From positions 124,001-188,000 of the forward strand of contig NZ_PPCN01000009.1 in assembly GCF_002906165.1 (NCBI RefSeq): a stretch of 64,000 nt of DNA, in the 5' to 3' direction. Below the pieces are notes generated by a model that ran no database searches, was not told the origin of the DNA, and was given only the letters and a program-made list of their open reading frames with translations. This stretch comes from Roseibium marinum (lineage in GTDB: Bacteria > Pseudomonadota > Alphaproteobacteria > Rhizobiales > Stappiaceae). The position numbers and the translations under genes were made by a program. This document shows, piece by piece, positions 3,491 to 30,663 of the stretch; position 1 is the stretch's first letter, and every line of letters starts with the position of its first letter.

Positions 3491-3532
3491 GCAATGAAAC
3501 CTGCCGCACCCATGGACCGCGTGACGCCCTAG

Positions 3533-6500
3533 ATGCATATTCTCGCCAGCCAGACGCGCCGCATCGATGACGGCGGCGACGCGGTCGATCTCGGCCAGTC
3601 ACCGGCCGACATCGTGTTTCTGTCCGCGGCCGATACGGAACTCGGAAGCTTCGCCGCCGCCCATGCAGGTCTGGATGAGGACAGGGCCGGACTGCGCCTT
3701 GCCAACCTGATGGCCCTGTCGCATCCCTATTCGGTCGATCTTTACGCTGAACAGACCGTGCGCGGCTCGAAACTGGTGATCCTTCGCATTCTGGGCGGCG
3801 TGGAATACTGGCGCTATGGTCTGGAGCGCTTCGAGGAGGAGGTCCGCGCCAGCGGCATCGACCTGATTGTCATCCCCGGTGACGACAAATGGGACGAGGA
3901 CCTGACCGGCCGCTCGACGCGCCCGGCTGAGGAAGTGCACCGGTTCTGGCGCTATTGTGTCGAGGGCGGCGCGGAAAACTATGCCAATGCGCTGCGGTTC
4001 GCGGCGTTCCTGCTGGGCAAGACGGACGAGCCCGCCCATCCCGTGCCTTTGCCACGTGCCGGCATCCATCTGCCCGGCCATGCGGCTCCGGATCTGGCGG
4101 CGCTGAAGGCCACCTGGCGCGATCCGGCGCGGCCCGTGGCGGCAATCACCTTTTACCGCGCCCTCGTGCAGGGTGCGCAGACGGCGCCCATCGACGCGCT
4201 CCTCGAGGAACTGGACCGGGCCGGCGTCAATGCGCTTCCGGTCTTCGTCTCCAGCCTCAAGGAAGCCGAATCCATCGCTGTACTGGAAAACCTGTTTGAA
4301 GGCGCGCCGCCGGATGTGGTTCTGAACGGCACCGCCTTCGCTGTCTCCAAGGCGGGGGTAGCCCATCAGCCGACGCCGCTGGACCGGCCCGGCAAACCTG
4401 TGCTGCAAGTGGTGTTTTCCTCATCCTCCCGCGAAGGCTGGGAGGACAGCGAGCAGGGCCTCTCGATTCGCGACCTTGCCATGCATGTGGTCCTGCCGGA
4501 AATCGACGGGCGTATCCTGACGCGGGCGGTCTCCTTCAAGGAAGAAGGAGTCTTTGACGCCGAGACCCAGTCCACACCGGTGAAGTTCACGCCGGTTCCG
4601 GATCGTATTCGTTTCGTCGCGGACCTCGCCGCAGGCTGGGCGAAGCTGGGGCATCTGGGTGCCGGGGACAAGAAAACGGCGCTGATCCTGGCGAACTACC
4701 CCAACCGGGACGGGCGTCTTGCCAACGGCGTCGGACTGGACACACCCGCTTCCTGCGTGTCGCTTCTGGCGGCAATGGGGGCCGCCGGCTACGACGTCGG
4801 CAACGCGCCCAATTCCTCCGCCGCGCTCATGGACATCCTGACGTCCGGCGTGACCAACGCGATGGAGGGGCGCGAAACGAGAGACGGCTTTCAGGCTCTG
4901 TCGCTGGACGACTACCGGCAAGCGTTCGCGAGACTGCCGGAGAAAGTGAAATCCGCGGTTCGGGAGCGCTGGGGCAGGCCTGAGGACGATCCTCATGTGA
5001 CGGGCGGGGAATTCCGCCTGGCGCTGCATCGCTTCGGCGCGCAGATGGTCGGCATTCAGCCGGCGCGCGGCTACAATATCGATCCGAAGGAAACCTATCA
5101 CGACCCGGCTCTGGTGCCGCCGCATCACTATTTCGCCTTTTATATCTGGCTGCGGGATCAATTCGGCGTCCATGCGGTTGTTCATCTGGGCAAGCATGGC
5201 AATCTGGAATGGTTGCCGGGCAAGGCTCTGGCGCTGTCCGAAGCCTGTTTCCCCGAAGCGGTACTCGGGCCGGTTCCCAACATCTATCCGTTCATCGTCA
5301 ACGATCCGGGCGAGGGCGCTCAGGCGAAACGCCGGACCTCCGCCGTCATCGTCGACCACCTGACCCCACCGCTCACGCGCGCCGAAAGCCACGGCGCGGC
5401 GGAGGAGCTGGAGATCCTGCTGGACGAATATTATCTGGCGAGCGGCGTCGATCCGCGCCGCCTGAAGGCCTTGACGCGGGAAATTCTCGATGCCGCCGTC
5501 CGCCACGGGCTCGACAAGGATATCGGCCTCGACGAGGCGATGGACGAGGACACCCGTCTGGCGCGGCTGGACGCCCATCTGTGCGACCTGAAGGAACTGC
5601 AGATCCGCGACGGGTTGCATATTCTCGGCGCGAGCCCGGAAGGCGGCCTGCTGACGGATCTTCTGGCTGCGCTGGTGCGCGTTCCAAGAGGCAAAGAGCT
5701 TGCGCAGGAAAGTCTCCAGCGGGCACTGGCAGGAGACCTTGGGTTGGGAGCTTTCGATCCCCTCGATTGCGATTTTTCGGAAGGCTGGAACGGACCGAAG
5801 CCGGATGTATTGCAGGCAATGTCCGACGCACCCTGGCGCTCCGGCGGAGATACCGTGGAACGCATTGAATTGCTGGCGCGGGATCTGATCGCGGGCGACA
5901 GGATCGCGTCCGCCGAGTGGGAGCGGGTCCGGGCCGTCCTGACGGAGATCGATACTTGCCTGCGCTGCGCGGTAACGTCTTCGGGACCTGCGGAGACCGC
6001 CGCTGTTCTGACTGCGCTCGATGGCGGATTCGTCGAACCGGGTCCATCCGGGGCTCCCTCGCGCGGACGGCCCGACGTGTTGCCGACCGGCAGGAACTTC
6101 TATTCCGTCGATGTCCGCGCGGTTCCCACCGAGACCGCCTGGCGGCTGGGGCAGCAATCGGCGAACCTTGTGGCCGAGCGTTATTTCCAGGAAGAAGGCG
6201 AATGGCCGTCATCGCTGGTGCTGACTTGCTGGGGGACGGCGAACATGCGCACGGGCGGCGACGATATCGCCCAGGCCCTGGCGCTCATCGGCGCGCGCCC
6301 GGTCTGGGAACAGGGGTCGGGCCGGGTTACCGGGTTCGAGATTCTGAAGCTCTCCGAACTCGGACGTCCGCGCATTGACGTTACCCTGCGCGTTTCCGGT
6401 TTCTTCCGAGACGCCTTTCCGCACCAGATGGATCTCTTTGACAGCGCCGCCCGTGCCGTCGGAGCGCTGGAAGAGCCCGAAACGGCCAATCCGATTGCTG

Positions 6501-7291
6501 CGCGTATGAAAACGGACGCGAGGGAACTGGAAAAAAGCGGTGCGAACGCGCAGGACGCGATGCAGAGGGCCGGATACCGGGTCTTCGGCTCCAGGCCGGG
6601 CGCTTACGGCGCCGGGCTGCAGGCGCTGATCGACGAAGGCATCTGGGCGGAACGGGGCGACTTCGCCGAAGCCTTCCTCACCTGGGGCGGCTATGCCTAT
6701 GGCGGCGGTGGGGACGGCGCCCCGGCAAGAGCCGCGCTGGAGACCCGGCTGACATCGGTCGACGCGGTGCTGCACAATCAGGACAACCGCGAACATGACC
6801 TGCTCGACAGCGATGATTATTACCAGTTCGAAGGCGGACTGGCGGCAACGGTGGAAACGCTGAAAGGCGCGGCCCCAAAGGTCTATCACAACGATCATTC
6901 ACGCCCGGAACGCCCGGTGGTACGCTCCTTGTCGGAGGAAATCGGCCGTGTCGTCCGCGGCCGGGCGGCCAATCCGAAATGGATCGCCGGCGTCATGCGC
7001 CACGGCTACAAGGGCGCATTCGAGATGGTCGCCACACTGGACTATCTCTTTGCCTTCGCCGCCACCACCCGCGCTGTCGGCGACCATCATTTCGACCAGC
7101 TCTATGAAGCCTATCTGGACGATGAAACCGTGCGCGATTTTCTCAGGGAGGCCAATCCGGCCGGCCTGAAGGAAATGCTCGCGAGATTTCAAGAAGCAAT
7201 CGAGCGTGGCCTCTGGACGCCGAGGCGCAATTCCACCCATGCTGCGCTCAACGATCTGAAAACTGAACTGGAAGGGACCGAAACGCCGTGA
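3533..7291 (+). CDS. cobN: Cobaltochelatase subunit CobN
   Basis: Large subunit of the ATP-dependent aerobic cobaltochelatase (CobN-CobS-CobT), which inserts Co(II) into hydrogenobyrinic acid a,c-diamide. At 1252 residues it matches full-length CobN/BchH-type subunits. Recognisable segments include HYYFAFYIWLRD followed by HLGKHGNLEWLPGKA (about residues 525-570), FIVNDPGEGAQAKRR, and the C-terminal region LLDSDDYYQFEGGL with the YHNDHSRPERP motif. No cobS or cobT is in the window, so they must be elsewhere. No good Shine-Dalgarno sequence precedes the ATG at 3533; the stop overlaps the cobO GTG start (GTGA), indicating coupling. Confidence 0.97.
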   Translation: MHILASQTRRIDDGGDAVDLGQSPADIVFLSAADTELGSFAAAHAGLDEDRAGLRLANLMALSHPYSVDLYAEQTVRGSKLVILRILGGVEYWRYGLERFEEEVRASGIDLIVIPGDDKWDEDLTGRSTRPAEEVHRFWRYCVEGGAENYANALRFAAFLLGKTDEPAHPVPLPRAGIHLPGHAAPDLAALKATWRDPARPVAAITFYRALVQGAQTAPIDALLEELDRAGVNALPVFVSSLKEAESIAVLENLFEGAPPDVVLNGTAFAVSKAGVAHQPTPLDRPGKPVLQVVFSSSSREGWEDSEQGLSIRDLAMHVVLPEIDGRILTRAVSFKEEGVFDAETQSTPVKFTPVPDRIRFVADLAAGWAKLGHLGAGDKKTALILANYPNRDGRLANGVGLDTPASCVSLLAAMGAAGYDVGNAPNSSAALMDILTSGVTNAMEGRETRDGFQALSLDDYRQAFARLPEKVKSAVRERWGRPEDDPHVTGGEFRLALHRFGAQMVGIQPARGYNIDPKETYHDPALVPPHHYFAFYIWLRDQFGVHAVVHLGKHGNLEWLPGKALALSEACFPEAVLGPVPNIYPFIVNDPGEGAQAKRRTSAVIVDHLTPPLTRAESHGAAEELEILLDEYYLASGVDPRRLKALTREILDAAVRHGLDKDIGLDEAMDEDTRLARLDAHLCDLKELQIRDGLHILGASPEGGLLTDLLAALVRVPRGKELAQESLQRALAGDLGLGAFDPLDCDFSEGWNGPKPDVLQAMSDAPWRSGGDTVERIELLARDLIAGDRIASAEWERVRAVLTEIDTCLRCAVTSSGPAETAAVLTALDGGFVEPGPSGAPSRGRPDVLPTGRNFYSVDVRAVPTETAWRLGQQSANLVAERYFQEEGEWPSSLVLTCWGTANMRTGGDDIAQALALIGARPVWEQGSGRVTGFEILKLSELGRPRIDVTLRVSGFFRDAFPHQMDLFDSAARAVGALEEPETANPIAARMKTDARELEKSGANAQDAMQRAGYRVFGSRPGAYGAGLQALIDEGIWAERGDFAEAFLTWGGYAYGGGGDGAPARAALETRLTSVDAVLHNQDNREHDLLDSDDYYQFEGGLAATVETLKGAAPKVYHNDHSRPERPVVRSLSEEIGRVVRGRAANPKWIAGVMRHGYKGAFEMVATLDYLFAFAATTRAVGDHHFDQLYEAYLDDETVRDFLREANPAGLKEMLARFQEAIERGLWTPRRNSTHAALNDLKTELEGTETP

Positions 7292-7926
7292 CCGCAGATA
7301 ACGACAAACCGGAACTGTCCGACGAGGAACTGAACGCCCGTCATGCGGAAAAGATGCGCAAGAAGAAAGCCGCGCGCGACAAGATCATGGCCACCAAGAC
7401 CATCGAGAAAGGCCTGCTCATCGTCCATACCGGCAAGGGCAAGGGCAAATCGACCGCAGGCTTTGGCATGGTGTTCCGCTCGCTCGGTCACGGCCACAAG
7501 GTGGGCGTGGTCCAGTTCGTCAAGGGCCGTATCGAGACCGGCGAACGCATGGCGCTGGAGCGGTTCTCCGATCTCGTGACCGTCAAGCGCATGGGCGAGG
7601 GGTTTACCTGGGAAACCCAGGACAGACAGCGCGATATCGACGCGGCACGGCAGGCCTGGGACGCGGCCAAGGAGATGATCACATCCGGCGACTACCGGCT
7701 GGTTCTGTGCGATGAACTCAATATCGTCCTGCGCTACGATTATCTCGATATCGCCGAAGTCGTCGAATTTCTGGAAAATGAAAAGCCGGAGGACGTGCAT
7801 GTCGTCATCACCGGCCGCAACGCCAAGGACGAACTGATCGAAATCGCCGATCTTGTCACCGACATGACGCAGATCAAGCACCCCTTCCGTTCCGGAGTGA
7901 AACCGCAGGAAGGTATCGAGTTTTAA
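7288..7926 (+). CDS. cobO: Cob(I)yrinic acid a,c-diamide adenosyltransferase
   Basis: Transfers the 5'-deoxyadenosyl group of ATP to cob(I)yrinic acid a,c-diamide (CobO/BtuR family). The product has 212 residues. The unusual P-loop TGKGKGKST is at residues 48-56 after a charged N-terminal helix rich in Lys and Arg, and LVLCDELNIVLRYDYL near residue 145 is the family's Walker B-like segment. HVVITGRNA and the C-terminal MTQIKHPFRSGVKPQEGIEF end are typical. It starts at a GTG inside the last codons of cobN, so it is probably translated by coupling to cobN. Confidence 0.96.
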   Translation: MTADNDKPELSDEELNARHAEKMRKKKAARDKIMATKTIEKGLLIVHTGKGKGKSTAGFGMVFRSLGHGHKVGVVQFVKGRIETGERMALERFSDLVTVKRMGEGFTWETQDRQRDIDAARQAWDAAKEMITSGDYRLVLCDELNIVLRYDYLDIAEVVEFLENEKPEDVHVVITGRNAKDELIEIADLVTDMTQIKHPFRSGVKPQEGIEF

Positions 7927-7944
7927 CCGCGGAACCGAGGACAT

Positions 7945-8412
7945 ATGCCTTTCACGATCATCGCCGCCAACAGTGCGGATTCTCATGAAATCGCGACGTT
8001 GCTCCACCGCTCGATCCTGGAACTCTGCACGGCCGATCACGGCAACGACCCGGAAAAATACGAGCCCTGGCTCAAGAACAAGACAGCGGCCAATATTGAA
8101 AGCTGGATAAATGGACAGGGCGGTGTTTTCACCGCCATCGACCCGCACCGCAAGGTGCTGGGCGTGGCGATGGGATCGCCGGATGGGGAAGTGCTCTTGA
8201 ATTATGTTCTGCCCGATGTCCGCTGCATGGGTGTCAGCAAGATGCTCATGCGGACTTTGGAGGACTATTTCCGCGACCGGGGGCTGGACACGGCCCGGCT
8301 GAAAAGCACGGAAACGGCCAGCAGGTTCTACCATTTGATCGGATTTACCGAGACGGGCGAGATTGAGACCCGAAGGGGAATGACCTTCCGGGAATTCGAA
8401 AAGGTATTGTAG
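7945..8412 (+). CDS. GNAT family N-acetyltransferase embedded in the cobalamin operon
   Basis: A 155-residue protein with the GNAT fold: an N-terminal strand (FTIIAANSADSHEIATLLHR), a central strand ending VLNYVLPDVRCMGVSKML, where the acetyl-CoA pyrophosphate loop (Q/R-x-x-G-x-G/A) is represented by RCMGVSK, and a C-terminal ETASRFYHLIGFTETGE motif. The substrate is unknown. It starts 18 bases after cobO behind GAGG and runs 2 bases from the next gene, so it is part of the cob transcript. No cobalamin enzyme of this family is known to me. It may be a passenger gene or may modify a small molecule linked to uptake or stress. Confidence 0.85.
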   Translation: MPFTIIAANSADSHEIATLLHRSILELCTADHGNDPEKYEPWLKNKTAANIESWINGQGGVFTAIDPHRKVLGVAMGSPDGEVLLNYVLPDVRCMGVSKMLMRTLEDYFRDRGLDTARLKSTETASRFYHLIGFTETGEIETRRGMTFREFEKVL

Positions 8413-10195: not shown

Positions 10196-11173
10196 TTAAA
10201 GCGCGAATAGGATCGCAAGGACTGCCACGAAGATTGCCTGCAAGGCGAATGCTCCGAGCATGACCGTCAGCGCTCTGGAAATATCGGCCGCGGACGCGTC
10301 TCTGCGTCCGGATGCATTCAAAAAGCGGTCGTTGACCGTATAGCCCGGATAGATCCTCGGGCCCGCGAGTGACAGGTTCAGCGCCCCGGCCATTGCCGCT
10401 TCCGGCCAGCCGGCATTGGGGGAGCGATGTTTTCCGGCGTCATCGAGGACACACCTGATGCTTTTCTGGATCGATCCTCTTGCACGCGGCGCCGCGAGCG
10501 CGATGAAAAGGGCGGAAAGCCGCGAGGCGGGCAGATTGATCAGGTCGTCGAAACGCGCCGCCGCCCAGCCGAAATCCCTGTAGACCTCGTTCTTGTGGCC
10601 GATCATGCTGTCGGCGGTGTTGACCGCCTTGTAGGCGATCAGGCCCGGCAGGCCGAGCACGGCGAACCAGAAAACCGGCGCTACCACGCCGTCGGCGAAA
10701 TTCTCCGCGCAGGATTCAATGGCCGCCCGCGAGACGCCTGCTTCGTCGAGCTGTTTCGGATCCCGTCCGACGATCATCGAAACGGCTTCACGTCCACCTT
10801 CAAGGCCACCGGTTTGGAGCCCGTCGCGCACGGCCGCAACATGCCGGTAGAGACTGTTGAGCGCTATGAAAACGGCGGCGATCACGACGGTCACGAATTC
10901 CCCGAGCGGCAGGCTTGCGACAAGGGCATGGATACCGCCACCGATCAGGAGACCGCCCGTCACCAGAAAAAGCAGGGTCAGAACACCGCCGAGTTTGCGC
11001 AGGAAGGGATCATGGGCCGTCTTGTTGAAATGCCTGTCGAAGACGGCAATCACCTTGCCGATCCATACCACCGGATGTGGCAGGCGCTTCCACAGCCAGC
11101 CTGGATCGCCAATCACCGCATCGAGCAACAGCGCTGCCAGCAACACCCAGAGCGCGTTTTCATAAATCAACAT
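10196..11173 (-). CDS. cbiB: Adenosylcobinamide-phosphate synthase (CbiB/CobD family membrane protein)
   Basis: Integral inner-membrane enzyme that joins (R)-1-aminopropan-2-ol phosphate to adenosylcobyric acid. The 325-residue length is normal. N-terminal LLLDAVIGDPGWLWKRLPHPVVWIGK holds the family GDP and HPV motifs. ESCAENFADGVVAPVFWFAVLGLPG and the NTADSMIGHKNEVYRDFGWAAARFDD segment follow, and PNAGWPEAAMAGAL is near the C-terminal third. Several hydrophobic helices are visible. It lies nine bases after the threonine-phosphate decarboxylase gene, whose product supplies its substrate, so the two form a minus-strand operon. In rhizobial nomenclature the gene is called cobD. Confidence 0.95.
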   Translation of the reverse strand: MLIYENALWVLLAALLLDAVIGDPGWLWKRLPHPVVWIGKVIAVFDRHFNKTAHDPFLRKLGGVLTLLFLVTGGLLIGGGIHALVASLPLGEFVTVVIAAVFIALNSLYRHVAAVRDGLQTGGLEGGREAVSMIVGRDPKQLDEAGVSRAAIESCAENFADGVVAPVFWFAVLGLPGLIAYKAVNTADSMIGHKNEVYRDFGWAAARFDDLINLPASRLSALFIALAAPRARGSIQKSIRCVLDDAGKHRSPNAGWPEAAMAGALNLSLAGPRIYPGYTVNDRFLNASGRRDASAADISRALTVMLGAFALQAIFVAVLAILFAL

Positions 11174-11182
11174 GATTGCTGG

Positions 11183-12184
11183 TTAGAGGTCTTTTTGCGC
11201 ATCGGCAAGGGCCTGCGAAAGACGCGCGAGGTTGACGGGGCCGCCCGGCAGGCCGAAGCGGATCCATGTCGGCGCATAATCAAAGACCCGTGTCCAGATG
11301 TGGCGGCGGGCAAGAGCCTCGTGCAGGACTTTCGCATCCCTGAGACCGGCGAGCGCATAAAGCGTCGTTCCGCCGAAGACGCTCAGGCCGCGTTCGGAGA
11401 GCGCCAGGGTGAGGTCGGCCATATCCTCGGCAAGCCGGCGGGTCATACGCTCCCGAAAGGCGTCGTCCCGCAGCGCCGCGGCGCCGATTTCCAGCGCCGG
11501 TCCGCTGAGGCACCAGCTTTCCAGCATGCGGGTCACTTTGCCGGTAATCGTTTTGTTGCCGGCCAGAAAGCCGATCCGCAGACCCGCAAGGCCGTAGAAT
11601 TTGCCGAAGGACCTGAGCACCACAATGTTCTCGTCGCCAAGATGCGGCAGAATGCTGGCACCGGGAACAACGTCGGCGAACGCCTCGTCGACGATCAGAT
11701 AGCCGCCGCGCGCGGTCAGGGCGCGGCTGATGTCAAGCAGGCTTCCGACATCGACCAGACGTCCGTCCGGATTGTTCGGATTGACCAGGACAACGATCTT
11801 CGCGTCCGCCGGGACGGCGTGGATGCTGGAGATCTCAACCGGCGGACGGTTTTCACGCGTCCACACCACCCTGTGGCTGGAATAGGTCGGGGAGACGAGG
11901 GCGACGGGACCGTCCGGCAGCGCCAGGGGCAGCAGAGAAAGCAGGATCTGTGTGCCCGGCGCGGCGGCAAGGCCCAAATGCTCCGGCACGCGGTAGGCAT
12001 GGCGGGCAGCGGAAATCAGCCGCTCCTCCGCGGCCTTCGCCGGAAGATCCGTCCAGGCGCCGGCGGAAATTTCCTGTGGCAGGCGATAGCTGTACGGATT
12101 GATGCCGGTCGAAAGGTCCAGCCAGTCCTCCCGCATGCCGCCAAAGCGCTCGATCGCCAGGGTCAGATCCCCGCCATGCTCCAT
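11183..12184 (-). CDS. cobD: Threonine-phosphate decarboxylase (PLP-dependent; CobD, also called CobC)
   Basis: Decarboxylates L-threonine O-3-phosphate to aminopropanol phosphate for the lower linker of cobalamin. It belongs to the fold-type I aminotransferases (HisC-like), 333 residues. Features are DLSTGINPYSY near residue 24, PGTQILLSLLP for cofactor binding, VLVNPNNPDGR near residue 133, VDEAFAD near residue 167, and the Schiff-base lysine in SFGKFYGLAGLRIGF (about residue 195). The C-terminal TWIRFGLPG carries the substrate-carboxylate arginine. It is the first gene of the cobD-cbiB pair. No second riboswitch is visible in the 190 bases upstream. Confidence 0.93.
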   Translation of the reverse strand: MEHGGDLTLAIERFGGMREDWLDLSTGINPYSYRLPQEISAGAWTDLPAKAAEERLISAARHAYRVPEHLGLAAAPGTQILLSLLPLALPDGPVALVSPTYSSHRVVWTRENRPPVEISSIHAVPADAKIVVLVNPNNPDGRLVDVGSLLDISRALTARGGYLIVDEAFADVVPGASILPHLGDENIVVLRSFGKFYGLAGLRIGFLAGNKTITGKVTRMLESWCLSGPALEIGAAALRDDAFRERMTRRLAEDMADLTLALSERGLSVFGGTTLYALAGLRDAKVLHEALARRHIWTRVFDYAPTWIRFGLPGGPVNLARLSQALADAQKDL

Positions 12185-12374
12185 GGAAATGTCCTTTCGT
12201 GGCCTTCACTGGCCTACGCAGTGATCTTTTTCGAGAGGCTTATCCGATTTGGCAGGCAAGGTCACCGGCGGAAACGACATGGTCTTGTCAGATCTGCCGA
12301 TTGACAGAACGGGGGCGGAATAAGAAAAGAACAAAACAGGAACAATGGGCCTCGATCCGTGCTGGGAGTTTAAT

Positions 12375-12614
12375 ATGTCCGCTGGCAGCAGCAGCCAATC
12401 GCCAAACGATTTTGACCGGGCCACGGTGCTGGCGGCACTGGGAGAAGCAAGGCTTTCGCTTATCGCGGCGAAGCGGCGCATGCGGCCCAAATCCGGTCTG
12501 TCGCGATCCGCCGATGCGCTGATTTGCGAAATCGACGAATTCGCGCTCATCCTGACCGGCGCGCAGGATTACTTTCACCTGAAGGCGCATGGAACGCCTG
12601 CACGGCAGTCCTGA
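12375..12614 (+). CDS. Small hypothetical protein
   Basis: An open frame of 79 residues from the ATG at 12375, preceded by GGAG eight bases upstream; an in-frame upstream ATG at 12345 has no such site. The product is a predicted helical cytoplasmic protein (ATVLAALGEARLSLIAAKRRM, then LICEIDEFALILTGAQDYF) with no signal peptide, membrane segment or motif I recognise. It lies between the divergent cobD promoter region and the convergent ybdK-like gene. Two frames are open on the opposite strand here, but neither has a comparable ribosome site. Coding status is likely but not certain. Confidence 0.6.
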   Translation: MSAGSSSQSPNDFDRATVLAALGEARLSLIAAKRRMRPKSGLSRSADALICEIDEFALILTGAQDYFHLKAHGTPARQS

Positions 12615-12645
12615 TGTATCGGGATTTCATATGAGCGCTGTTTTA

Positions 12646-13776
12646 TCACAGTCCTGACTGGGTTTCGCGCACCAGATGATCGACAATCCTGTCGAGCCTG
12701 TTCTGGGGAACGGCGGTGTCTTCCTCGACGTCTTCGGCCAGAGCCAGTTGTCTGTCGGCGGATGTGCCTCTCGCGGCGATGGTGCGGATATATTCCAGAT
12801 CCTGCTCGCAGCCGAAATGGACCGCGTCCGGTGTCACCAGCTCGATAAGCTCGCCGACGAGGTCCTCGAACGGCGAGGTCTCGTTGCGGCCGAAATCGAT
12901 CAGCTTTGCCGCTGTGCCGTGTCTTTGGGCTTGCCAGCGGTTTTCCGCCAGCAGGAAACGGGAATAGCGCCGCCAGCCCAGATTGGCCCGGCGCAGCCGG
13001 TAGAGCATGCGGCACAGGCACCGGTAGAGGGCGGCGATCGCCACCGCGTCGTCCAGCAGCGGGCAGACATCCGTGATCCGCATTTCCAGAGTGGGGAAAC
13101 GGTCCGAAGGCCGCAGATCCCACCAGATCTTGGTCGCATCCTCAAGAACTCCGGCATGGGTGAGGATATCGACCGTGTGCCGGTAGTCGTAATTGCTTTC
13201 GAACGCGGGAGGCAGACCGGTCCGGGGCATCTCGTTGAAAACCGACAGCCGGTAGGATTTCAGGCCCGTTTTCCGGCCGCGCCAGAACGGAGACGATGTG
13301 CTCAGCGCGAGCAGATGGGGCAGGAAATAGGCAAGCTGGTTGAACAGCTCGATCCGCAATTCCTCGTCTTCTATCCCCACATGCACATGCATGCCGCAGA
13401 TCACCATTCTCTTGGCGACGACCTGCAGGCTTTTGGCGATTTCGTTGTAGCGCTCCTTGTCGGTATGCGCCTGGTCGGTCCATTCGGCAAAGGGATGCGT
13501 GGAGGCGGCAATGGGAGCCAGTCCGAATACGGCCGCTTCCCGTGCGATGGTCCTGCGGAATTTTGCAAGCTCGGTGCGAACGTCGGCAAGCGTCTCGCAG
13601 ACGGGCGTTCCAACCTCGATCTGGCAACGCAGAAATTCGGGACTGACCTGACCCTTCAGAGCCGCTTCACAGGCCTTGAACAGGTCCGTTGGCGGAGAAG
13701 GCGCCAATTTGCGCGTGGTTTTGTCGACAAGAAGATATTCTTCCTCGACACCGATGCTGAAACTGGGCTCCTTCAT
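12646..13776 (-). CDS. YbdK-type carboxylate-amine ligase (GCS2 family)
   Basis: Member of the glutamate-cysteine ligase family 2, whose E. coli relative YbdK has weak gamma-glutamyl-cysteine ligase activity. The 376-residue length is normal. Motifs are FSIGVEEEYLLVD (residues 5-17, metal- and substrate-binding acidic residues), FLRCQIEVGTPVCETLADV, CGMHVHVGIEDEEL near residue 135, NEMPRTGLPPAF, and LEMRITDVCPLLDDAVAIAAL near residue 225. The physiological substrate is unknown for most of the family. It is monocistronic on the minus strand and convergent with the small hypothetical gene. Confidence 0.92.
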   Translation of the reverse strand: MKEPSFSIGVEEEYLLVDKTTRKLAPSPPTDLFKACEAALKGQVSPEFLRCQIEVGTPVCETLADVRTELAKFRRTIAREAAVFGLAPIAASTHPFAEWTDQAHTDKERYNEIAKSLQVVAKRMVICGMHVHVGIEDEELRIELFNQLAYFLPHLLALSTSSPFWRGRKTGLKSYRLSVFNEMPRTGLPPAFESNYDYRHTVDILTHAGVLEDATKIWWDLRPSDRFPTLEMRITDVCPLLDDAVAIAALYRCLCRMLYRLRRANLGWRRYSRFLLAENRWQAQRHGTAAKLIDFGRNETSPFEDLVGELIELVTPDAVHFGCEQDLEYIRTIAARGTSADRQLALAEDVEEDTAVPQNRLDRIVDHLVRETQSGL

Positions 13777-23077: not shown

Positions 23078-24247
23078 ATGCAGCGCCGTTTCGATCCGAT
23101 CTACCTCGACTACAACGCGGGCGCACCCCTGCGAACCGACGTGCGCGAGGCGATGATCGAAGCGCTTGAAGACCCGGGTAATGCCTCTTCCGTCCATGGC
23201 CACGGCCGCAAGGCCCGCGGCAGGATCGAAGCCGCGAGAGAGAAGGTCGCCCGTCTTTGCGGTGCCGGCAGCAGGGCAGTTACCTTCGTTTCCGGTGGCA
23301 CCGAAGCCAACATGACCGCATTGTCGCCCGTTTGGCAGGACAAGGGCGCGCCTGTCTATCTCGACAAGCTTTTCCTGAGTGCCGTCGAACACCCCTCGGT
23401 CGCGACCGGAGGACGGTTCCCGGTAGCAGACCGCTTCGTGGTTCCCGTCGATCCGGACGGCCGCCTTCGGCTTGCCGCACTGGAAGACGCCGTGAAGGAT
23501 GCCAATCCGGGACTGATCTCGGTCATGGCCGCCAACAACGAGACCGGCGTTATCCAGCCGCTTGCGGAAATAGGCGCGCTTGCCGAGAAATACGGCCATT
23601 TCTTTCATGTGGATGCGGTTCAGGCCGCGGGCCGGATGAAGATCGACATGGACGCCTGGAAGGCGGACGCCGTCTCCTTGTCGGCCCATAAATTCGGCGG
23701 GCCGCAAGGCACCGGAGCTGTTGTCGTCAGGTCGAGCGCGCGGGTACCGTCTCCCTTGATGGTCGGCGGCGGACAGGAAAACTGGCGGCGGGGCGGCACG
23801 GAAAATGTTGCGGCGATCACCGGATTTGGCGTTGCGGCGGAAACCGCTCTTGAAGAATTGTCCCAAACACGCCATCTCGCAGAGATGAGGGTCAGGCTCG
23901 AGACCGGCTTGCGAAGCGTGTGTCCGGCAACGGTCATCTTCGGAGAAGCCGCGGATCGCCTGGAAAATACGAGCTGTTTCGCCGTCGCCGGTGTTCCGGC
24001 GGAAACCGCGCTGATCTCGTTCGATCTCGATAACGTATCCCTTTCGTCCGGGTCCGCATGCTCTTCGGGAAAAGTGTCGGTGTCGCATGTTCTGACGGCA
24101 ATGGGTGTCGAGGAAGACCTCGCACGCTGTGCGCTTCGGATAAGCATGGGCTGGAACACTTCAGAGGCCGAGATCGACAGGGTTCTGGAGCTCTGGCCGC
24201 GCATTGTCGAACGGCTCAACCCGCAGGCACGCCACAGGGCGGCCTGA
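23078..24247 (+). CDS. Cysteine desulfurase, NifS/IscS-like (group I)
   Basis: PLP enzyme that takes sulfur from cysteine as an enzyme persulfide for Fe-S cluster assembly. The 389-residue product starts PIYLDYNAGAPL (usual YLDNAATTP), has GGTEANMTAL for PLP binding, NNETGVIQP, the PLP lysine in SLSAHKFGGPQGTG (about residue 206) and the catalytic cysteine in SSGSACSSGKVSVSHVL near residue 325. It is the first gene of the suf operon, before sufB, and differs in group from the SufS encoded later in the same operon. RBS AAGGTG precedes the ATG. A dedicated regulator gene (IscR or RirA) does not accompany it. Confidence 0.93.
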   Translation: MQRRFDPIYLDYNAGAPLRTDVREAMIEALEDPGNASSVHGHGRKARGRIEAAREKVARLCGAGSRAVTFVSGGTEANMTALSPVWQDKGAPVYLDKLFLSAVEHPSVATGGRFPVADRFVVPVDPDGRLRLAALEDAVKDANPGLISVMAANNETGVIQPLAEIGALAEKYGHFFHVDAVQAAGRMKIDMDAWKADAVSLSAHKFGGPQGTGAVVVRSSARVPSPLMVGGGQENWRRGGTENVAAITGFGVAAETALEELSQTRHLAEMRVRLETGLRSVCPATVIFGEAADRLENTSCFAVAGVPAETALISFDLDNVSLSSGSACSSGKVSVSHVLTAMGVEEDLARCALRISMGWNTSEAEIDRVLELWPRIVERLNPQARHRAA

Positions 24248-24358: not shown

Positions 24359-25831
24359 ATGCCAGCTGTACAGGAAACCATCGACAGGGTGAAAGCCATC
24401 GATGTCGACCAGTATAAATACGGCTTCGTGACGGACATCGATTCCGAAAGAGGCGCCAAGGGGCTCTCCGAAGAGACAGTCCGGTTTCTGTCAGCCAAGA
24501 AGAACGAACCGGAATGGATGACCGAGTGGCGTCTGGATGCGCTGCGCCGTTTCATGCAGATGGAAGAGCCGGACTGGGCGCGCGTTTCCTATCCGAAGAT
24601 TGATTTTGACGAGCTTTACTACTGGGCGTCGCCGAAGTCCGTCGAAGGCCCGAAAAGCCTCGACGAGGTCGATCCGGAGCTGCTGGCCACCTATGAAAAA
24701 CTCGGCATTCCGCTTCGCGAACAGGAAGTTCTGGCAGGTGTGGAACCGAAGAACCGCGTCGCGGTCGATGCGGTGTTCGATTCCGTTTCCGTGGTGACCA
24801 CCTTCAAGGCGGAGCTCAAGAAGGCGGGCGTCATTTTCTGTTCCATCTCCGAGGCCTTGCGCGAATATCCGGATCTGGTGAAGAAATATCTCGGCTCGGT
24901 CGTTCCGGTCACCGACAACTATTATGCGACGCTGAACTCGGCTGTCTTCTCCGACGGCTCGTTCGTCTATGTTCCCGAAGGCGTACGCTGCCCGATGGAA
25001 CTGTCGACCTATTTCCGCATCAACGAACAGAATACCGGCCAGTTCGAACGCACGCTGATCATCGCCGAAAAGGGCGCATACGTGTCCTATCTGGAAGGCT
25101 GCACGGCGCCACAGCGCGATGAAAACCAGCTCCACGCTGCCGTTGTCGAACTCGTGGCGCTGGACGACGCGGAAATCAAGTACTCCACGGTCCAGAACTG
25201 GTTCCCGGGAGACAAGAACGGCAAGGGCGGCATCTACAACTTCGTTACCAAGCGGGGCGATTGCCGCGGCAAGAATTCCAAGATCTCCTGGACCCAGGTG
25301 GAAACCGGTTCGGCGATCACCTGGAAATATCCGTCCTGTATCCTGCGCGGCGAGAACTCCCGCGGCGAATTCTATTCGATCGCGGTGGCCAACGGCTATC
25401 AGCAGATCGACAGCGGCACGAAGATGATCCACCTGGGCAAGAACTCCTCCAGCCGGATCATTTCCAAGGGCATTTCCGCCGGCAAGTCGCAGAACACCTA
25501 TCGCGGTCTGGTTTCGGCACACCGCAAGGCGTCGAGCGCGCGCAACTTCACCCAGTGCGATTCGCTGCTGATCGGGCAGGACTGCGGCGCCCATACGGTG
25601 CCCTACATCGAGAGCAAGAACGCATCAGCCCAGTTCGAGCACGAGGCGACCACCTCGAAGATCTCGGACGACCAGATGTTCTATTGCCTGCAGCGTGGAC
25701 TGACCGAAGAGGAAGCCGTGGCGCTGATTGTCAACGGCTTCGTCAAGGACGTCATCCAGCAGCTGCCGATGGAATTCGCCGTCGAGGCTCAGAAGCTGAT
25801 CTCGATCAGCCTGGAAGGCTCCGTTGGCTGA
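24359..25831 (+). CDS. sufB: Fe-S cluster scaffold protein SufB
   Basis: Scaffold subunit of the SufBC2D complex on which Fe-S clusters are built. The 490-residue product contains the SufB signature region [30 protein letters not shown] split over residues about 203-232, [20 protein letters not shown] and the C-terminal [24 protein letters not shown] with the conserved cysteine and glutamate. ATG at 24359 has GGAGG seven bases upstream; the frame extends to 24332 but without a site. The stop TGA overlaps the ATG of the next, unrelated gene (TGATG? read as CTGATGG), indicating coupling. Confidence 0.97.
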
Positions 25832-26307
25832 TGGGGTTGGGTTCTTGGCTATCGAAAAAGGCAACTGAAGCTCAGAGACGTGAAGCAGACAATTTTCTGG
25901 TTTCACTCAAGGGGGCTGATCAGTTGGCATTGGACGTAGTTAGCGCAGCTACCATGTCTTACGCCGCTTATTTTGAAGCTAAGGGCAGAGACGTGTATCG
26001 AATGGCCCTCTGGATAGAGGATAAGGAACAAATGATGTTCCCACTTGAAATTGGGCAGATGATAAAAGCTCAGCAGAAACAAAAAACAACGAGCTCCACT
26101 CCGGGGTTAATGGTTTGGTTGTTTTCAGCTAGAGCACTTTTAGAGCCACAACTAAGACTTTCTGGCAGAGACATCTGGTCTCAACTCTCAAAATCAAGTG
26201 AGGAAAGTGAAGTTTTGGCGAGCGAAATGTGTGTGGCAATGAACTTGTCACATAGTCCTTTCGATAGACACTTGGTTCCGATTGGACTCGAACAGTTGCA
26301 ACGTTGA
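25831..26307 (+). CDS. Unknown low-GC gene inserted between sufB and sufC
   Basis: A 158-residue protein I do not recognise. By hand count its 477 bases hold 217 G+C (about 45%), against roughly 60% in sufB and sufC, and codons such as TTT, GAA, AAA and TTG are frequent. The start ATG shares its A with the sufB stop (TGATG), and the stop lies 14 bases before sufC, so it would be co-expressed with SUF. The product is soluble and probably mostly helical: SKKATEAQRREADNFLVSL, an aromatic stretch AAYFEAKGRDVYRMALWIED, then a conserved-looking PGLMVWLFSARALLEPQLR and GRDIWSQLSKS. No cysteine motif for Fe-S binding (one Cys, ASEMCVAMN), no signal peptide, no membrane helix. It looks horizontally acquired; its frame is intact. 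Confidence 0.8.
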   Translation: MGLGSWLSKKATEAQRREADNFLVSLKGADQLALDVVSAATMSYAAYFEAKGRDVYRMALWIEDKEQMMFPLEIGQMIKAQQKQKTTSSTPGLMVWLFSARALLEPQLRLSGRDIWSQLSKSSEESEVLASEMCVAMNLSHSPFDRHLVPIGLEQLQR

Positions 26308-26321
26308 AGAAGAAGACCACA

Positions 26322-27077
26322 ATGCTTGAGATCAAGAACCTGCACGCCCGCATCGCGGAAGACGAAACGGAAATCCTGCGCGGCGTCAATCTGACCGTCA
26401 AGGCGGGCGAAGTGCATGCCATCATGGGACCGAACGGTTCCGGCAAGTCGACCCTGTCCTATGTTCTCGCCGGCAAGGACGATTACGAGGTCACCGAGGG
26501 CGAAGTGCTTTTCGACGGCCAGAACATGCTGGACATGTCGCCGGACGAGCGCGCAGCCGCGGGCATGTTCCTGGCGTTTCAGTACCCGATCGAAATCCCG
26601 GGTGTCGCCACCATGGAATTCCTGAAAACGGCGATGAACGCGCAGCGCAAGGCGCGTGGCGAAGCCCAGCTTTCCATTCCCGACTTCATGAAGCGGGTCA
26701 AGGAAGCTGCGGGTCATCTCAACGTGTCCATGGACATGCTGAAGCGCCCGCTCAATGTCGGTTTTTCCGGCGGCGAGAAGAAGCGCGCCGAAATCCTGCA
26801 GATGTCTCTGCTGGAGCCGAAACTCTGCGTGCTGGACGAAACAGACTCCGGTCTCGACATCGATGCGCTGCGTATCGTCTCTGACGGTGTCAACAAGCTG
26901 CGCGGTCCGGACCGGGCCATGGTGGTGATCACCCACTACCAGCGTCTGCTGGATCACATCGTGCCAGATGTCGTGCATGTCCTGTCGAAAGGCCGGATCG
27001 TCAAGACCGGCGACAAGGATCTGGCGCTTGAGCTGGAAAAGAACGGTTACGCCGACTACGTCGACGCCGCGGCTTGA
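26322..27077 (+). CDS. sufC: Fe-S cluster assembly ATPase SufC
   Basis: ABC-type ATPase of the SufBC2D scaffold. The 251-residue product begins MLEIKNLHARIAEDETEILRG split over residues 1-21, and has Walker A GPNGSGKST, Q-loop FLAFQYPIEIPG, the SufC signature GFSGGEKKRAEILQ, Walker B CVLDETDSGLDIDAL and H-loop VITHYQRLL. ATG 26322 is the normal SufC start; an in-frame TTG at 26304 adds six lysine-rich residues and overlaps the previous gene. Its usual neighbour sufB is separated from it here by the low-GC insert. Confidence 0.97.
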   Translation: MLEIKNLHARIAEDETEILRGVNLTVKAGEVHAIMGPNGSGKSTLSYVLAGKDDYEVTEGEVLFDGQNMLDMSPDERAAAGMFLAFQYPIEIPGVATMEFLKTAMNAQRKARGEAQLSIPDFMKRVKEAAGHLNVSMDMLKRPLNVGFSGGEKKRAEILQMSLLEPKLCVLDETDSGLDIDALRIVSDGVNKLRGPDRAMVVITHYQRLLDHIVPDVVHVLSKGRIVKTGDKDLALELEKNGYADYVDAAA

Positions 27078-27091
27078 GGGAGCATCGCAAT

Positions 27092-28411
27092 ATGAATGCA
27101 AGTGTCCCCATCAAACACACGCAGGCTGAAAGCGATCTGATCGGCCGCTTCGAGGCCGCCAAGGGCGTCCTGACCGGTTCCGTGGCCGTCACGGCCCTCA
27201 GGGAAGCCGCTGTCAGCCAGATCCGCGACAAGGGTCTGCCGCACCGGCGCGTCGAGGAATACAAATACACCGATCTGCGCGCCTTCATGAAGTCGGCCGC
27301 TCCATTGGCCGCCGCCGCCGATGAAAGCGCCGTCAAAGCCATTCTGGGTGGCCAGGACGCCTTTGGCGGCCTGGAGCGCTACCGGATCGTCGTCGCCAAT
27401 GGCGCCTTTCTTCCCGGGCTTTCCGATGTCGAGGCGCTCGCGAGCGAAGGCGTGAGCGTTACCAGCCTGACCGGCGAACTTGCCGGTGAGCACGGCGCAC
27501 AGCTGCTCGCCTCGCCGAAATCCGCGGCGAATGACGGCGTCCTGGCCCTGAACACGGCATTCGTTCAGGGCGGCGTGGTCGTGAAGGTGAAAGAGGGCGC
27601 TGAAGTCTCCCGGCCTGTCGAACTGGTTCACGTGGCGGCTTCGGCCGGCGCCCAGGTCAGCCGGAACAAGATCTATGTCGCAAAGGGTGCGAAACTGCGC
27701 CTTCTGGAGACCTTTGCGGGCGAAACAGGCGCCGGTGAACTCAACATTGTGTTCGACTATGATGTTGCCGACACAGCGTCGCTTGTGGCGACACGGCTGA
27801 TCGTCGGGCAGTCGGATACCGCCCGGCTGATCACCTCGATCGCAACGATCGGCGCGCAAACCGAGTTCAAATCCCTCGGATTTATCGCCGGCCCGCGTTT
27901 CATACGGAACCAGCAGTTCATCAATTTCGCGGGCGAAAATTCCAATGCCGGGATTTACGGTGTCACCATGGCGCGCGATGAGGATCTGGCGGATCAGACA
28001 CTGATCGTCGATCACGCGGTTCCTCACTGCAACAGCCGCGAGTTCTTCAAGACGGTTCTCGACGGCCGGGCGAAGGGCGTCTACCAGGGGCGCATCAATG
28101 TTGCCCCGCATGCCCAGAAAACCGACGGCGAAATGATGACCCAGGCGCTGCTTCTCTCCGAGGACGCGGAAATGGCCAACAAGCCGGAGCTGGAAATCTT
28201 CGCGGACGACGTTATTTGCGCACATGGTGCAACCAGCGGCCAGATTGACGAGGATCTGCTGTTCTACCTCCGCGCCCGCGGCATCCCGGAAGACGAGGCC
28301 AGAACGCTTCTCGTGCTTGCCTTCCTTGCCGAGGCAATCGAGGAATATGGCGAAGACGATGTGACCGAGGGTCTGGAAGCGCGGGTGCGCGACTGGCTCG
28401 CCGGCCACTAA
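27092..28411 (+). CDS. sufD: Fe-S cluster scaffold protein SufD
   Basis: Third component of the SufBC2D scaffold, related to SufB and needed for iron acquisition by the complex. The 439-residue product has a helical N-terminal domain with the motif GLPHRRVEEYKYTDLRAF, a central beta-helix and the C-terminal SufBD region: VPHCNSREFFKTVLDGRAKG, QGRINVAPHAQKTDGEMMTQ and CAHGATSGQIDEDLLFYLRARG, with the conserved Cys and His of the scaffold interface. ATG 27092 has GAGGGAG about 10 bases upstream; it begins 14 bases after sufC. Confidence 0.96.
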   Translation: MNASVPIKHTQAESDLIGRFEAAKGVLTGSVAVTALREAAVSQIRDKGLPHRRVEEYKYTDLRAFMKSAAPLAAAADESAVKAILGGQDAFGGLERYRIVVANGAFLPGLSDVEALASEGVSVTSLTGELAGEHGAQLLASPKSAANDGVLALNTAFVQGGVVVKVKEGAEVSRPVELVHVAASAGAQVSRNKIYVAKGAKLRLLETFAGETGAGELNIVFDYDVADTASLVATRLIVGQSDTARLITSIATIGAQTEFKSLGFIAGPRFIRNQQFINFAGENSNAGIYGVTMARDEDLADQTLIVDHAVPHCNSREFFKTVLDGRAKGVYQGRINVAPHAQKTDGEMMTQALLLSEDAEMANKPELEIFADDVICAHGATSGQIDEDLLFYLRARGIPEDEARTLLVLAFLAEAIEEYGEDDVTEGLEARVRDWLAGH

Positions 28412-28561: not shown

Positions 28562-29818
28562 ATGTCGGTTGCAACCGCTCACGAGACCTCCCGGGCATCG
28601 GGTTACGATGTCGAAACCATCCGCAAGGATTTCCCGATCCTGGCGCGAGAAGTCTATGGCAAACCGCTGGTCTACCTCGACAACGGCGCGTCGGCTCAAA
28701 AGCCGCAGGCCGTTATCGATGCGGTCACGAAGGCGTATTCGCATGAATACGCCAATGTGCACCGGGGCCTGCACTACCTGTCCAACACAGCGACGGACAA
28801 TTACGAAGCCGCGCGCGAGAAGGTACGCCGCTTCCTGAATGCCGCATCCGCCGACGAGGTCGTCTTCACCAAGTCGACGACGGAGGCGATCAATCTTGTC
28901 TCCTATGGCCTTGGACCGGATTATTTCGCCGATGGTGGAGAAATCGTTCTGTCCATCATGGAGCACCATTCGAACATCGTGCCCTGGCATTTCCACCGCG
29001 AGCGCCATGGTGCAAAACTGAAATGGGTCTATGTCCGCGAAGACGGATCGTTCGATCTGGATGCCTTCGCTGATGCGCTCAGCGACAGGACCAGGCTGGT
29101 GGCGATCACGCATATGTCCAACGTATTGGGCACGGTGGTTCCGGTTAAGGAAGTTTGCCGGATCGCGCATGAGCGCGGCATTCCGGTCCTGGTTGACGGC
29201 AGCCAGGCGGCGGTGCATCTGCCGGTCGATGTGCAGGATATCGACTGCGACTACTACGTCTTCACCGGCCACAAGGTTTACGGGCCAACCGGGATTGGCG
29301 TGCTTTGGGGCAAGCCCGACAGGTTGAAGGCATTGCGGCCGTTCAACGGTGGCGGCGAAATGATCCTGGATGTCACGGAAGACGCGATCACCTATAATGA
29401 TCCGCCGCACCGCTTCGAAGCGGGGACCCCGCCGATCGTCCAGGCGATCGGACTTGGAGCGGCCCTGGACTACATGGACGCGCTCGGCCGGGAGAATATT
29501 GCCCGTCATGAAGCGGATTTGAAAGAATATGCACACCGGAAACTGAAGGAAATCAATTCTCTCAGGATCTTCGGCGAAGCGCCCGGAAAGGGAGCTATCG
29601 TCTCCTTCGAGATTGAGGGCGCTCATGCCCACGATGTGGCGACGATCATCGACAGGGCAGGGGTGGCGGTTCGCGCCGGCACCCATTGCGCCCAACCGCT
29701 CTTGGCAAGATACGGCGTGACCTCTACATGTCGGGCAAGCTTCGGGCTTTATAACACTCGTGCCGAAGTCGACGCGCTTTATGAGGCGTTGCTGAAGGCG
29801 CAGAGCTTTTTCGGGTAA
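28562..29818 (+). CDS. sufS: Cysteine desulfurase SufS (group II)
   Basis: SufS/CsdA-type PLP cysteine desulfurase, 418 residues, giving sulfur to SUF, usually with a SufE or SufU partner that is not in this window. Motifs are VYLDNGASAQKPQAVIDA near residue 39, VFTKSTTEAINLV, the SufS-specific block EHHSNIVPWHF, the PLP lysine in YYVFTGHKVYGPTGIGVLWG (about residue 238), GGGEMI and RAGTHCAQPLL holding the catalytic cysteine (about residue 377). It has AAGGAG 10 bases before its ATG. A 150-base gap, rich in GGCCACG-type inverted repeats, separates it from sufD. Confidence 0.96.
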   Translation: MSVATAHETSRASGYDVETIRKDFPILAREVYGKPLVYLDNGASAQKPQAVIDAVTKAYSHEYANVHRGLHYLSNTATDNYEAAREKVRRFLNAASADEVVFTKSTTEAINLVSYGLGPDYFADGGEIVLSIMEHHSNIVPWHFHRERHGAKLKWVYVREDGSFDLDAFADALSDRTRLVAITHMSNVLGTVVPVKEVCRIAHERGIPVLVDGSQAAVHLPVDVQDIDCDYYVFTGHKVYGPTGIGVLWGKPDRLKALRPFNGGGEMILDVTEDAITYNDPPHRFEAGTPPIVQAIGLGAALDYMDALGRENIARHEADLKEYAHRKLKEINSLRIFGEAPGKGAIVSFEIEGAHAHDVATIIDRAGVAVRAGTHCAQPLLARYGVTSTCRASFGLYNTRAEVDALYEALLKAQSFFG

Positions 29819-29831
29819 GGACGGACCCAGG

Positions 29832-30227
29832 ATGGAAAACGCTACCACGATTGATACTGACGCGAATGGCGAAGAGCTGCAGACTGAAGTCTCGGCCAAA
29901 AGCGCCATTCCCGCCGATGAACTCGACAGGCTGACGAGCGATATCGTTGGTGCCCTTAAATCGGTCTACGATCCGGAAATCCCGTGCGATATCTATGAGC
30001 TCGGCCTGATCTACAAGGTCGATATCGAGGATGACCGGTCGATCAATATCGATATGACGCTGACAGCTCCGGGATGTCCGGTCGCCGGTGAAATGCCGGG
30101 CTGGGTGGAAAATGCCGTTTCCGCGGTCGCCGGTGTCGGCCCAGTCAACGTCGATATGGTCTTCGATCCGCCCTGGACGCCGGAGCGGATGTCCGACGAA
30201 GCCAAGGTCGCCCTCAACTGGTATTGA
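29832..30227 (+). CDS. sufT: SUF system Fe-S assembly protein SufT (DUF59/MIP18 family)
   Basis: Small DUF59 protein that assists Fe-S cluster maturation in SUF operons. It has 131 residues: a divergent 35-residue N-terminal extension, then IVGALKSVYDPEIPCDIYELGLIYKV, the DPEIP and DLGLIY-like signature, MTLTAPGCPVAGEMPGWVENAV with the conserved TxxxCP cysteine, and VFDPPWTPERMSDEA. It lies 13 bases after sufS and before sufA. SufT proteins are required mostly under high Fe-S demand in other bacteria. Confidence 0.93.
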   Translation: MENATTIDTDANGEELQTEVSAKSAIPADELDRLTSDIVGALKSVYDPEIPCDIYELGLIYKVDIEDDRSINIDMTLTAPGCPVAGEMPGWVENAVSAVAGVGPVNVDMVFDPPWTPERMSDEAKVALNWY

Positions 30228-30300: not shown

Positions 30301-30663
30301 ATGGCTTCCGCCGGAAAATTCCAGGTTATGACTCTGACCGACACCGCCGCTGAGCGGGTAACGGAACTCGTCGAGAATTCCGGCGGGAAGGCGATCGGCC
30401 TGCGTGTCGGGATCAAGACCGGTGGCTGTGCGGGCATGGAATACACGATGGATCTGGTGGAGGAAGCAAAAGCCGGGGACGATGTGATCGAGGACAAGGG
30501 CGCGAAGCTGTTTGTCGATCCTTCGGCGGTTCTCTTCCTGCTCGGAACCGAGATGGACTTTGAGGTCACCAAGTTTCGGTCCGGATTTGTATTCAGGAAC
30601 CCGAATGAGGTTTCCGCCTGCGGCTGCGGCGAATCCGTATCGCTTCAGGCCGCCGTCCGCTGA
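30301..30663 (+). CDS. sufA: A-type Fe-S carrier protein SufA/IscA (HesB family)
   Basis: A 120-residue carrier that receives clusters from SufBCD and passes them to apo-proteins. The three conserved cysteines are present: Cys in TGGCAGMEYTMD and the CxC pair in VSACGCGESVS. LTDTAAERVTELVEN begins the HesB fold. A 73-base gap precedes it, but it stays in the same orientation as the suf genes and probably shares their transcript. A second A-type protein, ErpA-like, is at 40463-40804. Confidence 0.94.
   Translation: MASAGKFQVMTLTDTAAERVTELVENSGGKAIGLRVGIKTGGCAGMEYTMDLVEEAKAGDDVIEDKGAKLFVDPSAVLFLLGTEMDFEVTKFRSGFVFRNPNEVSACGCGESVSLQAAVR

Follow-up and report, generated by a model that had tools for sequence, protein, structure and literature searches.

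A small gene with phage relatives at a probable insertion hotspot between sufB and sufC of the isc-suf operon

A 158-codon gene, here called X, lies between sufB and sufC of the isc-suf operon in the window, by which we mean the whole stretch of 64,000 nucleotides that was analysed. Based on the comparison of this junction among relatives, we suggest that it is probably an insertion hotspot within the operon and that X is its present passenger occupant. X belongs to a patchy gene family that also occurs in phages. Since relatives hold many unrelated small genes at the same place, or none at all, this gap has the look of a slot for cargo within an essential operon.

Results

Gene X in the window

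The operon in the window (Table 1) has the gene order of an annotated Sinorhizobium meliloti record, in which the sufB/sufC spacer is 77 bp. The ATG of X (25831-25833) overlaps the TGA of sufB (25829-25831), the frame is intact up to the stop at 26307, and 14 bases separate it from the sufC ATG at 26322. The original prediction had described this arrangement together with a low G+C content, and both were confirmed: the count of 217/477 (45.5%) is exact, and the GC3 of X agrees with it, being 0.434 compared with 0.682-0.786 in the seven surrounding suf genes (0.710, 0.780, 0.786, 0.745, 0.711, 0.682 and 0.719). The composition of X is foreign relative to its suf neighbours. The insertion had also been called precise, which understates the change, because the whole spacer, including the sufC ribosome-binding region, differs from the spacer of empty relatives. 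The start of X is consistent with the X family, in which M1 and W6 are invariant in a five-row alignment; W6 is present in at least 90% of the rows of a 30-row alignment and not in all rows of a nine-row alignment.

No promoter-like or terminator-like site was found in 25600-26500 and no Rfam match within 25500-26600, and X matched no Pfam or NCBIfam family above the cut-off, SUF family models included. There is no ORF for a recombinase, integrase or transposase between sufB and sufC of the window. The repeats at X are one imperfect direct repeat of 15 nt and one inverted pair of 12 nt, both inside the gene. Neither a clear boundary repeat nor an attachment-site pair was seen at its borders, and the junction does not have the marks of an integrase-driven island.

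Table 1. Genes and features of the isc-suf operon in the window
Feature	Coordinates	Strand	Basis or remark
Cysteine desulfurase (IscS/SufS-like, sufS1), upstream gene of the operon	23078..24247	+	ORF list; junction to sufB 36-202 bp in 86/86 resolved f1 genomes
sufB, 490 aa	24359..25831	+	Shares 83-84% identity with SufB in Shinella/Sinorhizobium records
TGATG, overlap of sufB stop and X start, translational-coupling type	25829..25833	+	Sequence
X, 158-aa passenger gene (probable), all-alpha model, GC3 0.434	25831..26307	+	
Purine-rich 14-bp spacer 5' of sufC	26308..26321	+	Lacks the spacer of 59-84 bp that empty junctions of the genus have
sufC, 251 aa	26322..27077	+	
sufD	27092..28411	+	sufC/sufD junction 11-27 bp in 84/84 resolved f1 genomes
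Second cysteine desulfurase, SufS	28562..29818	+	
SufT-like gene (presumed)	29832..30227	+	ORF list; name by position
SufA/HesB-like gene (presumed)	30301..30663	+	ORF list; name by position

A second SUF cluster, with sufB, sufC, sufD and sufS, was seen in G000 near probable nif genes (locus L090, G000:C1:298000-312000, 2428-7282 and 10691-13165). Its sufB is 78% identical, and its sufB/sufC gap is 2 bp with no passenger. The ORFs that by eye look like nifH and nifD are some 3.4 kb away from it. G029 carries a similar second suf cluster (L181).

The sufB/sufC junction across genomes

Junction lengths were taken from our own ORF calls, with gene starts set by alignment to residue 1; negative gaps (e.g. 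-352 and -1455) are artefacts of the alignment. In f1, the family of the window, 86 of 87 genomes were resolved and G001, whose sufB is split over contigs, was left out. The set for f105, a second family of the class, comprised 61 genomes (60 plus G605, added because of its X), of which 50 were resolved and 11 were left out (locus not retrieved or junction at a contig end). The class sample for junctions had 96 genomes, 37 of them without a SufB match at 1e-30; beside G000 and G163, the 41 better-scoring of 57 genomes were covered and 16 were not. Together with G061, G075 and G077, all three occupied, these 41 make up the group of other genomes (n=44).

The sufB/sufC junction exceeded 150 bp in 28/86 f1 genomes, 31/50 f105 genomes and 13/44 other genomes (10/41 without the three just named). 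When the three genomes known beforehand to carry X are removed, the counts become 27/85 in f1 and 29/48 in f105. The f1 junctions comprise 58 genomes with 46-84 bp, which are empty, and 28 genomes with 165-1678 bp. The neighbouring junctions are steady in f1, the baseline of this comparison being the other junctions of the suf operon: the median of the junction was exceeded by over 100 bp at 27/86 sufB/sufC junctions, and at 0/86 sufS1/sufB and 0/84 sufC/sufD junctions (ranges in Table 1). Further downstream in f1, sufS2/sufT is at most 62 bp (43 genomes), sufT/sufA is 24-274 bp (40 genomes), and sufD/sufS2 exceeds 130 bp in 2/45 genomes (G021 and G029). The corresponding f105 values are at most 20 bp for sufS1/sufB (49 genomes), at most 36 bp for sufS2/sufT (22) and at most 152 bp for sufT/sufA (22), with sufD/sufS2 at 107-195 bp in 3/22 genomes; sufC/sufD of f105 is excluded from the comparison because sufD starts are unreliable there. 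Among the other genomes, sufS2/sufT measures 421-538 bp in 6/10, a steady size that may reflect a regular additional suf gene. At the single locus L180 of G029, the sufD/sufS gap, normally tight, is 801 bp, and a GIY-YIG gene is present at sufB/sufC.

Large junctions might in principle arise from mis-called sufC starts or from assembly artefacts, given that many genomes are drafts and that the gene calls are our own. We regard this as hardly credible, because sufC starts were set by alignment, the same f1 loci have steady gaps on either side, occupant families recur across separate assemblies, and an ORF at this site of Caulobacter crescentus is already in print.

When occupancy was placed on a suf tree of 86 species, a quick maximum-likelihood tree of sufB and sufC DNA, at least 20 changes were required, 15 of them forced by supported branches; these counts do not separate gains from losses. 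Shuffled occupancy labels gave a mean of 23.9 changes, and 19 of 500 shuffles were as low as 20, so that occupancy is only slightly clustered on the tree. The comparison of junctions in relatives, which had been proposed as a check, showed that X is absent from the nearest kin of the window genome, where the junction is empty (G011, 64 bp; G035, 61 bp) or otherwise filled (G012, a different insert of 211 bp). The SufB proteins of the X-less G011 and G012 are about 99% identical to that of the window. We also considered an import of X along with divergent suf flanks, and dropped it: the sufB tail and sufC head are 0.92-0.97 identical to those of G011, G012 and G035, like the remaining parts of the genes, so that there is no sign of such an import. 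In many empty junctions of the genus, a small stem-loop rich in GC was noted by eye (uncounted) some 25 nt 5' of sufC; these stem-loops differ in sequence, and nothing similar is seen in the window, in which X stands in place of the spacer.

Occupants of the junction

Junctions longer than 120 bp yielded 85 co-directional ORFs of at least 50 codons, which fell into 49 clusters, part of these being chance ORFs or remnants of repeats. Pfam named five of the 20 occupants scanned (GIY-YIG, Cupin_2, Glyoxalase, DUF559 and ParE). Most occupants are small co-directional genes without relation to one another. Apart from X and a large number without a name, they encode proteins of nuclease-like, cupin, glyoxalase-like and membrane types and a ParE-type toxin. 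Occupant names on the suf tree were set by hand. The co-directional share is 20/24 in f1 and 29/31 in f105, values somewhat flattered by the sense-strand weight of 1.35 used in ORF picking. Starts overlapping the sufB stop were found for 20/29 sense-strand main ORFs in f105 and for 4/20 in f1, X included. Occupied junctions are on average lower in GC than their flanks by 5 points (f1) and 3 points (f105), and X shows the extreme difference within f1 (-14).

Three clusters occur at sufB/sufC in both families, namely X, a family with the motif YRPVG...FPPRLPEQPIFYPV, and a small CFYC/CPRC protein. The YRPVG family gave four matches in the 87 f1 genomes, all at sufB/sufC and one of them a fragment, while it was found in 7/60 f105 genomes, two of them at sufB/sufC. 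Since this family is also concentrated there in f1, sufB/sufC has favourite cargo and X is not alone. Same-family cassettes diverge more than their flanks, as judged by identities from global alignments with low gap costs, which are inflated for unrelated pairs.

The YRPVG gene was located at sufB/sufC of G020, G034, G042 and G039 in f1 and of G491 and G523 in f105, and the three full f1 copies have a common 3' border, GACGAGTAGAA, 5' of sufC. A GIY-YIG cluster was seen at the junction of G014, G021, G029 and G051, and a DUF559-like cluster at that of G503, G509, G513, G522 and G529. One nuclease-like occupant per cluster was scanned with Pfam, the others being assigned by cluster or by eye, and several of them have repeat-like coding stretches at their ends. 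It is possible that the nuclease-like occupants are movers of the site's cargo.

The X family and its distribution

Profiles built without X recovered X with E values of 3.4e-16 (four members) and 1.2e-19 (31 members) at Z = 100,000, indicating that the X ORF is not a chance frame and that its membership of the family is not circular. The proposed database and structure search of the product gave a family, with neither a Pfam or NCBIfam name nor a clear fold match. The X model is all-helical with a mean pLDDT of 93.7, and Foldseek searches of this model against PDB and BFVD gave no match at E <= 0.001. The best VIA Z value was 6.5, to a de novo design, which is within noise for helical bundles, and the PHROG match was phrog_5377 (E 3.6e-4, residues 16-59). 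W96, W116 and P150 are invariant in both the nine-row and the 30-row alignments of the family, and most members contain VWLHT.RA, which reads VWLFSARA in X. The dN/dS values were 0.095-0.344 in 27 pairs of related members, five of which compare one phage copy with near-identical others, and on this basis the family encodes a working protein. The argument that an intact frame speaks for selection therefore holds at the level of the X family.

A tblastn search with X reached distantly related sequences in Pseudorhodobacter turbinis (E 1e-7) and on plasmids of Paracoccus (E 6e-6), and it matched Pseudomonas phages weakly (E 0.01); with X of G163 as the query, the link to phages becomes firm (E 8e-36). 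The five-row alignment search of a genome collection gave 34 loci, 33 titled Rhodobacterales and one 'Alphaproteobacteria bacterium', and also six viral contigs. A further match lies on a Cupriavidus plasmid (a record without annotation). At the P. turbinis locus (L005), the X homologue at 5998-6459 adjoins an opposite-strand gene at 6692-8374 that resembles a large serine recombinase by eye. A match in G080 was dropped, as it lies in another frame of an ORF that by eye is aldo-keto-reductase-like.

X was found in one of the 87 f1 genomes, with no match in the other 86, and in two of 149 f105 genomes (G163 and G605), in both of which it lies between sufB and sufC. In the class sample 5/385 genomes had a match; G000 and G163 have it at suf, and G406 (E 1.3e-16), G266 (E 2e-7) and G306 (E 4.5e-4, weak) have it elsewhere. 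In the phylum sample 2/398 genomes had a match, both at suf. X is therefore present at sufB/sufC in three genera of two families, and each time its start overlaps the sufB stop. In G605 it overlaps sufB and abuts sufC, both by start-stop overlaps, and has a GC of 0.42 compared with 0.59; in G163 its start codon is a GTG that overlaps the TAG of sufB, and its GC is 0.54 compared with 0.64-0.66 for the sufB and sufC of that genome. X is followed in G163 (L054) by a second sufC start, truncated and diverged, then by a pair of genes and finally by a full sufC. By eye the pair resembles a toxin-antitoxin system (RelE/ParD-like), and NCBIfam matched neither gene. This junction looks as if two insertion events were stacked.

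The copies located at suf are deeply diverged (27-43% identity): X of G163 is 42.9% identical to that of G605 and 26.9% to that of the window, compared with 41.9% to the phage X. In the X tree, long branches meet, which is compatible with one or several origins of the three suf-located copies. Deep divergence and a shared site in two families are what would be expected if X were an ancient SUF gene of the class, lost from most lineages. This candidate was dropped on the distribution given above for f1, f105 and the phylum sample, and we consider it very improbable, since the GC of X is also low in G163 and G605 as well as in the window, and since sister genomes hold other contents at the junction. 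Same-site homologues with normal GC had been named beforehand as the sign of an old SUF gene. Homologues in f105 do exist at the site, but they do not make X such a gene, because they are GC-poorer than their flanks and rare.

The original prediction had also allowed for a recently added SUF accessory protein. In that case X would have been recruited repeatedly to modify or protect SufBC or Fe-S assembly under iron stress. Such a role keeps some weight because X is found at the same site in three genera, always with its start on the sufB stop, and because every X found in f1 and f105 is at suf. A SUF-specific role is nevertheless unlikely in our judgement. First, 86 of 87 f1 genomes work without X, and 58 of the 86 resolved junctions are empty. 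Second, non-homologous genes occupy the same place. Third, no suf genes lie in the examined flanks of the members from Rhodobacterales, plasmids and phages; seven Suf proteins compared with the X-family loci matched, the window aside, nothing but a SufS-like sequence (28%) on two plasmids. Fourth, SufB is nearly unchanged in the X-less G011 and G012. Finally, X of G163 is closer to the phage X and to that of G605 than to that of the window.

The places of X-family members outside suf bear on a further reading. In the Pseudomonas phage vB_PaeS-D14C a member lies 10 bp 3' of the CI repressor gene, which we take to be the place of lambda rexAB; in a P. aeruginosa plasmid record a member comes after an S24 peptidase gene, and in one IMG/VR contig after an ORF that clusters with CI. 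Members are otherwise solitary, no neighbour cluster being common to more than six of 46 loci. These positions, together with the low dN/dS of the family, would fit a phage-derived selfish or defence gene (e.g. for superinfection exclusion), whose own biology drives its spread and for which suf is a tolerant landing place. We hold this to be possible though doubtful, as PADLOC anti-phage defence models matched none of nine X-family members and the PDB and BFVD searches gave no fold match at E <= 0.001. It is a narrower version of the passenger-in-a-hotspot reading and is compatible with it.

Discussion

Based on these observations, we favour a passenger gene at an intra-operon hotspot, and hold this reading with good, not full, confidence. 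A passenger gene had been one of the two roles first proposed, and it agrees with the low GC3 of X, its absence from the 86 other f1 genomes and the unrelated genes at the site in relatives. In such a hotspot, short and mostly co-directional genes of unrelated families would be gained, lost or exchanged between sufB and sufC. X would need no promoter of its own, as it could be expressed via transcription through sufB and the TGATG stop-start overlap, and it would thus ride on the operon transcript as a passenger that gains expression cheaply. The cost to sufC would be small, since X is a short co-directional gene that contains no terminator-like site and stops 14 bp before sufC. We infer that X is co-transcribed with the suf genes and is dispensable for Fe-S assembly. 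Occupants may persist because the site would offer free iron-regulated expression beside genes that the cell cannot lose. As for the route of entry, our guess is chance capture, followed by exchange through the conserved sufB and sufC flanks.

The recurrence of X at this site in three genera and the location of both phylum matches at suf exceed what blind passage would give, and suggest site preference or SUF-linked use; the concentration of the f1 members of the YRPVG family at sufB/sufC points the same way. A bolder and only tentative proposal is that sufB/sufC is a class-wide cargo slot in an essential operon with a recurring pool of small gene families, which would include X, the YRPVG family, the CFYC..CPRC zinc-type family and a 120-aa membrane protein. 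These families would favour the site because SUF induction under iron starvation would be the expression signal they need, and the occupants would then behave like swappable alleles of one locus. X itself could, somewhat more doubtfully, be a host-interaction gene carried over from phages. For the role of X, a phage-type host interaction is our first guess and a SUF-linked role the second.

The nearest parallel is Caulobacter crescentus CC_1863, annotated as an ADP-ribosylglycohydrolase, which like X is one small extra gene at sufB/sufC of the isc-suf operon. According to the passages concerned, all isc-suf genes of C. crescentus, including this ORF, form one operon, with RT-PCR of some junctions (PMC11475020), and the ORF is listed among genes raised by iron limitation with a value of 8.30 beside 7.81 for sufB and 7.89 for sufC, the passages showing no unit (PMC3751524). 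The same passages present CC_1863 as a gene-order exception and do not mention a variable site (PMC11475020). The likeness to X is one of position. Expression of X under iron or oxidative stress had been predicted; by analogy with these operon data the iron part is plausible, whereas the oxidative part is contradicted in C. crescentus, where the passages report no response of the operon to oxidative stress (PMC11475020).

The hotspots of gene insertion and polymorphic indels described in SAR11, as far as the passages go, share with sufB/sufC the combination of the same flanks with different contents in relatives (PMC2217521). In SAR11, rearrangements within operons are given as 1.94 per boundary compared with 3.21 between operons (PMC2217521). 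Unlike those hotspots, sufB/sufC is internal to an operon and separates the genes for two subunits of the same complex; it mostly holds one or two small genes, and has no integrase at X.

Two other known systems resemble X in part. Lambda rexAB are lysogeny-expressed genes beside cI, and an X-family member likewise lies directly 3' of CI in a Pseudomonas phage; X of the window is chromosomal, and the likeness to Rex is one of position. The SUF accessory proteins SufE, SufU, SufA and SufT are encoded in the operon as X is, but X has no SUF family match and is not conserved.

That genes come and go within operons is known. The literature searched contained no title or abstract about a sufB/sufC hotspot, and as far as searched one occupant in one species is already in print. 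Such openness at a junction of a core operon, together with neighbouring junctions that hold steady and cargo families that recur, is new as far as these searches go.

Operons for one complex are expected to be tight, and here one junction is open to gene traffic while the flanking junctions, in f1, hardly change. As a caution, finding an unrecognised gene among the suf genes argues only weakly that it has an Fe-S role. The sufB/sufC junction provides a countable natural experiment on gene entry into operons, and it yields numerous small gene families, as yet without names, whose expression context is shared and probably iron-regulated.
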